A DNA stretch of 64,000 nt, taken from contig CAJNOJ010000059.1 of assembly GCA_905250025.1 (NCBI GenBank), forward strand, positions 351,280-415,279, in the 5' to 3' direction. The DNA comes from Adineta ricciae (lineage: Eukaryota > Rotifera > Eurotatoria > Adinetida > Adinetidae). The translations under genes and the position numbers were made by a program. Shown piece after piece: positions 15,115 to 16,842 of this stretch. Under the pieces are notes generated by a model. It was not told where the DNA came from. It ran no database searches and was given only the letters and a program-made list of their open reading frames with translations. How positions within the stretch are numbered: the first letter of the stretch is position 1; every line of letters starts with the position of its first letter.

Positions 15115-16161
15115 ATGATCATAATGGCAACGAGTCCAACAGTTTCTAATAATATTTCGAATTCCTCATCGTCCACAAAAACATCTTCGACACCTGCATC
15201 ATCACCACCTGCAACAACATCATCAATAATGTCAACAACAGTAACAAACAATTCAACATCTCCATCAATTAATGATCGTGTGATGAAAAGTAAATACTTG
15301 ACTAGGAGAAACACACACACACATCTCTATCCTGGATTATGATTTTTCTTCAATATTCTAGACATTCCATGTCCGCCAAATACACGTTTAACTGCATATG
15401 ATGTATTCGATTCACGTGGAAAGCCTCGCGTTGATACTCTCAAAGCACATTTCATAGCTGAAGGACGTGTTACTGAAGATGTAGCTCTCAAAATAATTGA
15501 AGATGGTGCCAAATTATTACGACAAGAGAAAACTATGATTGATGTTGAAGCACCGATAACTGGTAAGAGAGAAAAAAAAATGCAATTTTCATACTATTGA
15601 ACGAATCAACGTCAACAACGGGATTTTGTTTTAGTATGTGGTGATGTTCATGGACAATATTTTGATTTGATGAAACTATTTGAAGTTGGTGGTTCACCAG
15701 CAACAACGCGATATTTATTCCTTGGTGATTATGTTGATAGAGGTTATTTTAGTATTGAAGTAAATAGAATGCTTTTCAATAGCGATTAAACTTGCCTTTT
15801 TGATTACGATTTCTAGTGTGTTCTGTATTTATGGTCAATGAAAATTCTTTATCCAACAACATTTTTCCTTTTACGCGGTAATCATGAATGCCGACATTTA
15901 ACTGAATATTTCACTTTCAAAACCGAATGTAAGAACTATTCCAATGAATCTAATCAAAATACTTTCTTCTTTTCATTTGCCTGTAGGTAAAATCAAATAT
16001 ACCGAACGAGTTTATAATGCATGTATGGAAGCATTTGATTGTTTGCCATTAGGTACGAAAAGAAAATATTGATCATTACTGAAATAAACATTCGATTTTC
16101 TAGCGGCACTGATGAATGGCCAGTTCCTGTGTGTACACGGCGGTCTTTCGCCTGAAATTCA
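15115..16161 (+). CDS. PPP3C: Calcineurin A (PP2B catalytic subunit), 5' part only, cut at an N
   Basis: Exons 15115-15289, 15362-15562, 15635-15759, 15817-15928, 15987-16052 and 16104-16161 encode about 245 residues of a Ca2+/calmodulin-dependent Ser/Thr phosphatase. After a Ser/Thr/Pro-rich N-terminus comes [17 protein letters not shown], then metallophosphatase motifs GDVHGQ, GDYVDRG and [16 protein letters not shown], the last typical of calcineurin. The sequence breaks at VHGGLSPEI where the N at 16,162 interrupts the exon. Missing are the rest of the catalytic domain, the calcineurin-B-binding helix, the calmodulin site and the autoinhibitory segment. What follows the N is a different gene. 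Start could be the ATG at 15,115 or the one at 15,124. The truncation is best explained by assembly, not by a real pseudogene. Confidence 0.95.
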
Positions 16162-16162
16162 N
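16162..16162. other. Single-N assembly join inside an exon; chimera point
   Basis: The base before it is in the calcineurin phosphatase domain, the base after it is in a TMEM26-like membrane protein. No overlap is visible here, unlike at 13,060. Confidence 0.9.
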
Positions 16163-16842
16163 CGTACTTATTTTAAGTCGTTGGTTATTGCCAAAAGGTG
16201 AAATGACTCGTGAAGAACTTTCGCAATTATTATTGGTAAAAACAAAAACAGATTTATTTTCAGATGGAAGTCGATACTTCTTTCTCTTAGGTTTATATTG
16301 GCATCGCTGCAGATATAATTGAATTCTTCGAAGTTTTCAGAGAGAAAGAAGTAGAATTTTGTGATGATATCGTTCGCTTTGATCTGCTGTTTGTTTTTCA
16401 GGTCCGAACGAATATTAAATTAAGCGTATTAGTTCTTCTTCTATGGACATTTAGTTTACTGCAATTCTGTTTGGCATTCACCATTTCGCGTGGTCGGAAA
16501 AGTCGTCTAGTCATCAAAGAAGAACTCGAGAGACGCTTCTTTTGTAGTCCATCGGACTTCTGGGGCATGTTAATGTCATTATTTCTTCAAGATATTCCAT
16601 TTTTTTGTTTCCGTGCTGTACTCATATTTCATTATCATATTCTGTCTTATTCCACGGTGTTTTTCACTTCCAAAAATGGTTTAATCATTATTCTTCAATG
16701 GTATCGCATCACAGTCATATTAGCCACAACCATTTCACAAGGACGACGACATCAGGGAGGATTAGTTGAAGTTATACAGATGAACACGAACGACAAACGA
16801 TCTGGGACAAATGAGAGTAATCGTCTGAGTGTAGAAATATGA
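16163..16842 (+). CDS. TMEM26: TMEM26-like membrane protein, 3' part only
   Basis: Exons 16163-16235, 16291-16350 and 16402-16842 encode the last about 190 residues of a multi-pass membrane protein. The order of motifs matches my memory of vertebrate TMEM26: SRWLLPKGEMTREELSQLLL, then YIGIAADIIEFFE, a membrane helix LSVLVLLLWTFSLLQF, the SPSDFWGMLMSLFLQDIPFF segment, and FFTSKNGLIIILQWYR. The tail is hydrophilic and ends at TGA after SVEI. The 5' part is missing because the sequence starts at the N. Function of TMEM26 is poorly known; it is a plasma-membrane-type protein in mammals. The second intron (16351-16401) was placed by frame and similarity; reading through it is also open. Confidence 0.85.

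Follow-up and report, generated by a model that had tools for sequence, protein, structure and literature searches.

A calcineurin A–TMEM26 fusion gene in Adineta ricciae is almost certainly an assembly artefact at a one-N scaffold join

Introduction

A gene that opens as the phosphatase calcineurin A and closes as the membrane protein TMEM26, with a single N between the two parts, could be a novel fusion in the bdelloid rotifer Adineta ricciae or a false join of two incomplete genes. The question arises in a window of 64,000 nt, by which we mean the whole stretch of DNA that was analysed, at positions 351280-415279 of contig C59 (461,578 bp), and was followed through the searched assembly of 130.46 Mb in 1033 contigs. 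Positions are those of the window unless a contig is named.

Results

The Ns in the window number two, at 13060 and 16162 (Table 1). As the original prediction held, a single N separates a calcineurin A coding sequence that breaks off mid-exon at the base before it from a TMEM26 coding sequence that resumes mid-exon at the base after it. The TMEM26 sequence 3′ of the N (VLILSRWLLPKGEMTREEL...) is read in the frame starting at 16164, and the two genes are out of phase, with calcineurin A in frame 2 (mod 3) and TMEM26 in frame 0. The expectation that the reading frame stays open across the N is contradicted by this difference in phase and by a straight read-through in the calcineurin frame, which yields X-RTYFKSLVIAKR and then a TGA. 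The base following the N had also been placed inside a conserved TMEM26 segment; it is TMEM26 coding sequence, but the SRWLLPKGEM segment itself begins 13 nt later.

Table 1. Coordinates of the features at the junction and on contig C308 (window positions unless C308 is named)
Feature	Coordinates	Strand	Remarks
Second one-N join, N at 13060	12839..13281	.	12839-13059 = 13061-13281, exact 221-nt duplication
Calcineurin A (PP2B catalytic subunit), 5′ half	15115..16161	+	Spliced model, exon table, PDB matches to human calcineurin A
Calcineurin exons 1-5	15115-15289, 15362-15562, 15635-15759, 15817-15928, 15987-16052	+	
Calcineurin exon 6, first 58 nt	16104-16161	+	
Contig-end overlap, 221 nt	15941..16161	+	Equal to last 221 bases of C308 (115867-116087, minus strand)
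Phantom "intron" of 55 nt (GT...AG) spanning the N	16123..16177	+	Implied by public protein P0001
Single N, scaffold join	16162	.	Omitted length 12,193 bp by copy A; 12,257 bp by the match positions of copy B
TMEM26, 3′ part	16163..16842	+	Pieces 16163-16235 (exon end), 16291-16350, 16402-16842; Pfam PF09772 in joined model
TGA stop of calcineurin frame read across the N	16199..16201	+	
Copy A	C308 116087 to 103573	minus	No N inside
N joining copies A and B	C308:103572		
Copy B	C308 103571 to 86001 (end of stretch examined)	minus	No N inside

The best match to the fusion query is the public protein P0001, a 418-aa A. ricciae entry named "Serine/threonine-protein phosphatase" that carries both PF00149 and PF09772 and sits on a 461,578-bp contig, the same size as C59. 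When the window is spliced at its real introns and at a 55-nt GT-AG "intron" covering the N, the product is identical to P0001 at every residue, and the start and stop of this spliced model are the limits 15115 and 16842 of the predicted chimera. The anticipated fusion by an automatic annotator is therefore P0001 itself, joined via a phantom intron whose GT and AG both lie within true exons and not via an open frame. The median intron of A. ricciae is 55 bp in Table 1 of PMC5916493, and this published value probably explains the predictor's choice of a 55-nt span over the N. Among the 238 distinct proteins listed (the best 120 of 7792 and the best 120 of 325 matches), P0001 alone shows PF00149 together with PF09772 (1/238), and it is this very locus; no such fusion in another genome appears among these 238. 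At the locus, the two parts do not share one frame on uninterrupted DNA, as the frames differ, an N lies between them and 12.2 kb are missing. Among the titles and abstract openings listed by the literature searches, none deals with this calcineurin-TMEM26 chimera, which is not proof of absence.

The missing stretch lies on contig C308 (116,087 bp), which in a DNA search of the assembly matches the window's right half at 97% and bears at its very end the last 221 bases of the window's left half at 100%. C308 contains two copies of the region, A and B, joined at an N. Copy A begins with the contig-end overlap (221/221 identical to the window), after which exon 6 continues in frame (HTLEDIKRLDRFKEPP...); it completes calcineurin A and enters TMEM26 about 9.5 kb further on, and its last 101 bases are identical to window 16163-16263 at 99/101 positions. 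The last 218 bases of copy A are identical to copy B, and the two copies can be aligned over 12.5 kb in two blocks of 94.7% and 93.5% identity. Copy B crosses calcineurin residues 203-611 and the TMEM26 exons with no stop within any exon, the 6-residue calcineurin exon 11 being without a tblastn match in this tracing. Window 16163-31237 has a collinear counterpart in C308 from 91089 down to 76001, with 94.5% identity.

Both missing halves were recovered on this contig, twice each, in line with the original prediction of a false join whose lost parts are elsewhere in the assembly. The calcineurin 3′ half (1,669 bp) is present on C308 at 100% and 96% DNA identity, and the N-terminal part of TMEM26 (residues 15-224, searched with a 432-aa form trimmed by hand from the 457-aa model described below) at 89-97% protein identity. 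Beyond C308, in searches of the assembly that score the best candidates only, in a copy of it that may be incomplete, the best-scoring matches to the calcineurin 3′ half reach 69-76% only (C335, C4, C23 and C126), and the two best-scoring matches to the TMEM26 part reach 32% on C13 and 27% on C1. The halves had been expected on two contigs; instead, a single 12.5-kb piece carries one at each end, as does its second copy, because calcineurin A and TMEM26 are genuinely neighbouring genes with the same orientation. Apart from its last 221-225 nt on C308, the calcineurin 5′ half has no second match above 76-77% in the DNA search of the assembly, save five short ones of 53-69 bp that reach 80-88%. 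As no closer second 5′ half was found, the left flank of copy B is either missing or collapsed.

In copy A, calcineurin A ends with a stop at C308:114198 and TMEM26 starts on the same strand at 104743, with 9,454 bp between them. Four intergenic reading frames were compared with Pfam, of which one contains a DnaJ domain, one gives a weak B-box-like match below the cut-off and two are without a match; the DnaJ and B-box-like frames are on the opposite strand. The stretch between the genes (C308:104743-114198), with its DnaJ-domain gene, is absent from C59.

Joining the window to copy A gives a spliced calcineurin A model of 611 aa in 14 exons. It begins at the second ATG (15124), and the window holds residues 1-242, stopping within the stretch covered by the metallophosphatase domain PF00149, which is complete in the joined model (residues 120-319, profile positions 2-189/191, E=5.4e-40). 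Residues 48-543 of the query align to the calcineurin chain 4orb_A, and mammalian calcineurin A is among the best PDB matches. The predicted C-terminal regulatory part, which we take to comprise the calcineurin-B-binding, calmodulin-binding and autoinhibitory segments, is present in the joined model; the window lacks everything past residue 242. The joined model is identical at 611/611 residues to P0002, an A. ricciae calcineurin A of 614 aa on an 11,914-bp contig, and P0003 is the A. vaga orthologue (616 aa). Set beside calcineurin A of other organisms (human PPP3CA), the joined gene is thus an ordinary full-length member, whereas the window encodes residues 1-242 only.

Two further calcineurin A copies, perhaps homeologs, are found at C335:56874-59258 and C126:285112-286238; their 5′ parts are about 76% identical to the window at the DNA level, and the contig end truncates the C126 copy after about residue 300. 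C4, C23 and C130 carry calcineurin A-like genes that stand further from the one in the window, with tblastn segments 39-77% identical.

The joined TMEM26, as a 457-aa model, matches PF09772 over its full length (profile positions 4-285/285, E=1e-75), and the share contained in the window begins at residue 251. The joined gene is again an ordinary member of the TMEM26 (PF09772) family, of which the window has the C-terminal part only. The splicing of the 457-aa model was rejected, as it kept a 51-nt intron and misplaced one exon end, in favour of that of P0053, an intact A. ricciae TMEM26 of 432 aa on a 37,654-bp contig; P0053 differs from the respliced copy-A model at 12/432 residues. Retention of the 51-nt intron (16351-16401) keeps the frame open, and both P0053 and P0001 are without its 17 residues. 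At identities as high as these, DNA searches of the assembly found no contigs other than C59 and C308, so P0002 and P0053 probably belong to a different A. ricciae assembly.

The other N of the window shows the same signature. The 221 bases to the left of position 13060 are repeated exactly on its right, and a DNA search of the assembly with 12400-13700 gave matches at its own locus only. Judged by its sequence, this join is one of overlapping contigs put together by one N and left unmerged, so that 221 bp are counted twice. The same length of 221 nt recurs as the overlap at the end of C308. In 280,232 bases, a small control made up of the window and 53 loci, many of them overlapping, the distinct N positions are three (13060 and 16162 on C59, in window coordinates, and 103572 on C308), and 3/3 carry marks of an overlap or second-copy artefact, 2/3 being the case under study. 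A single N is written by some scaffolders where contigs are thought to overlap. The passages searched in PMC6733440 and PMC8110574 gave no confirmation of this convention.

Discussion

Taken from the sequence and its matches, the "gene" at 15115-16842 is almost certainly an assembly artefact in which contigs were abutted by one N and a 12.2-kb genomic middle was omitted. Two contigs were placed next to each other across one N although 12.2 kb separates them in the genome; the intervening DNA carries the remainder of calcineurin A, about 9.5 kb containing other genes, and the beginning of TMEM26. The omitted stretch lies on C308 ahead of its own second copy. The gene predictor then bridged the N by the 55-nt phantom intron and produced a false phosphatase-membrane fusion, as the exact match to P0001 shows. 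The join is likely to go back to two diverged haplotypes that yielded alternative contigs here, with the result that the left and right flanks, probably of different haplotypes, were linked directly.

The haplotype assignment is based on a single outside protein record together with two overlaps at contig ends (221 and 218 nt). P0053 has 1 mismatch to copy B in residues 1-223 and no mismatch to the window in residues 267-432, the 51-nt intron apart. These sequences suggest a haplotype 1 made up of the window's left side, copy A and the right part of C308, and a haplotype 2 made up of the middle of copy B and the window's right side. Under this assignment C59 and C308 would both be mosaics, and the window would switch haplotype at the N, losing the middle. 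Copy A and the window's right side may differ in haplotype, because their match covers 101 nt only and contains 2 mismatches.

A real 12.2-kb deletion on one haplotype, with the N as an uncalled base, would likewise place both halves side by side as the window does, and the right flank is otherwise collinear with C308. Such a deletion is extremely unlikely, as an exact overlap of 221 nt carries the left flank into copy A, where the 12 kb is present, and as a third haplotype would be needed given copy B. The join at 13060 bears the same 221-nt signature, the calcineurin and TMEM26 frames disagree, and both genes are intact in other A. ricciae records. Very unlikely, too, is a true tandem duplication on C308 of which C59 is an allele without the second copy. 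The lone N falls exactly where copy A ends inside TMEM26 and copy B starts inside calcineurin, and the last 218 bases of A equal B as contig ends would; these features argue against reading the head-to-tail position of A and B on one scaffold as a duplication. Moreover, the identity between A and B (93.5-94.7%) is near that of C308 to the window's right flank (94.5-95.8%), which looks allelic.

The existence of the fusion as an annotated protein, P0001, might in principle reflect a true read-through or trans-spliced calcineurin-TMEM26 transcript. The probability of this is vanishingly small: calcineurin has its own stop in the N-free copy A, 9,454 bp precede TMEM26, and the space between the genes contains long reading frames of the opposite strand, among them one that encodes a DnaJ domain. 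In addition, the "intron" on which the public model depends straddles an assembly N, with its GT and AG inside true exons. The assembly artefact accordingly remains the preferred reading of the locus.

Chimeric gene models across scaffold gaps are a well-known class of annotation error, and the present case is typical in that an N interrupts two unrelated genes within exons and a predictor has bridged the gap. What sets it apart is that the omitted stretch has been located along with its second copy, as has the public protein that resulted. Unmerged overlaps and misplaced haplotigs are a known class of error in assemblies of heterozygous diploids. The locus is no different in kind: its joins show exact terminal duplications, of 221 nt at 13060 and of 221 and 218 nt at either end of copy A, and a pair of diverged copies stands in apparent tandem on the two sides of an N.

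At the C308:103572 join, two 12.5-kb copies stand in apparent tandem, like the "linked homologous blocks" of bdelloids, which have been discussed as a sign of ameiotic genome architecture. In PMC5916493 (Nowell et al. 2018), based on a different assembly, just two linked homologous blocks are described in A. ricciae, both of them tandem. The same paper notes that scaffold gaps coincide with many breaks of collinearity, some of which may reflect errors in scaffolding. Tentatively, and with rather more doubt than confidence, misplacement of haplotype contigs might be widespread in bdelloid short-read assemblies and give rise to spurious linked homologous blocks, of which copies A and B on C308 would be an example.

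The locus holds no new biology and is a confirmed database error. P0001 stands in NCBI and UniRef and could enter surveys of domain architecture, orthology and gene fusion. Similar errors in the assembly can be sought by a simple test: joins of one N, overlaps of about 220 nt at contig ends, and gene models in which an intron of near-median length spans an N. The artefact has its use in documenting a database error and in drawing attention to an error class, and the locus shows how a tandem linked homologous block can arise at a one-N join.
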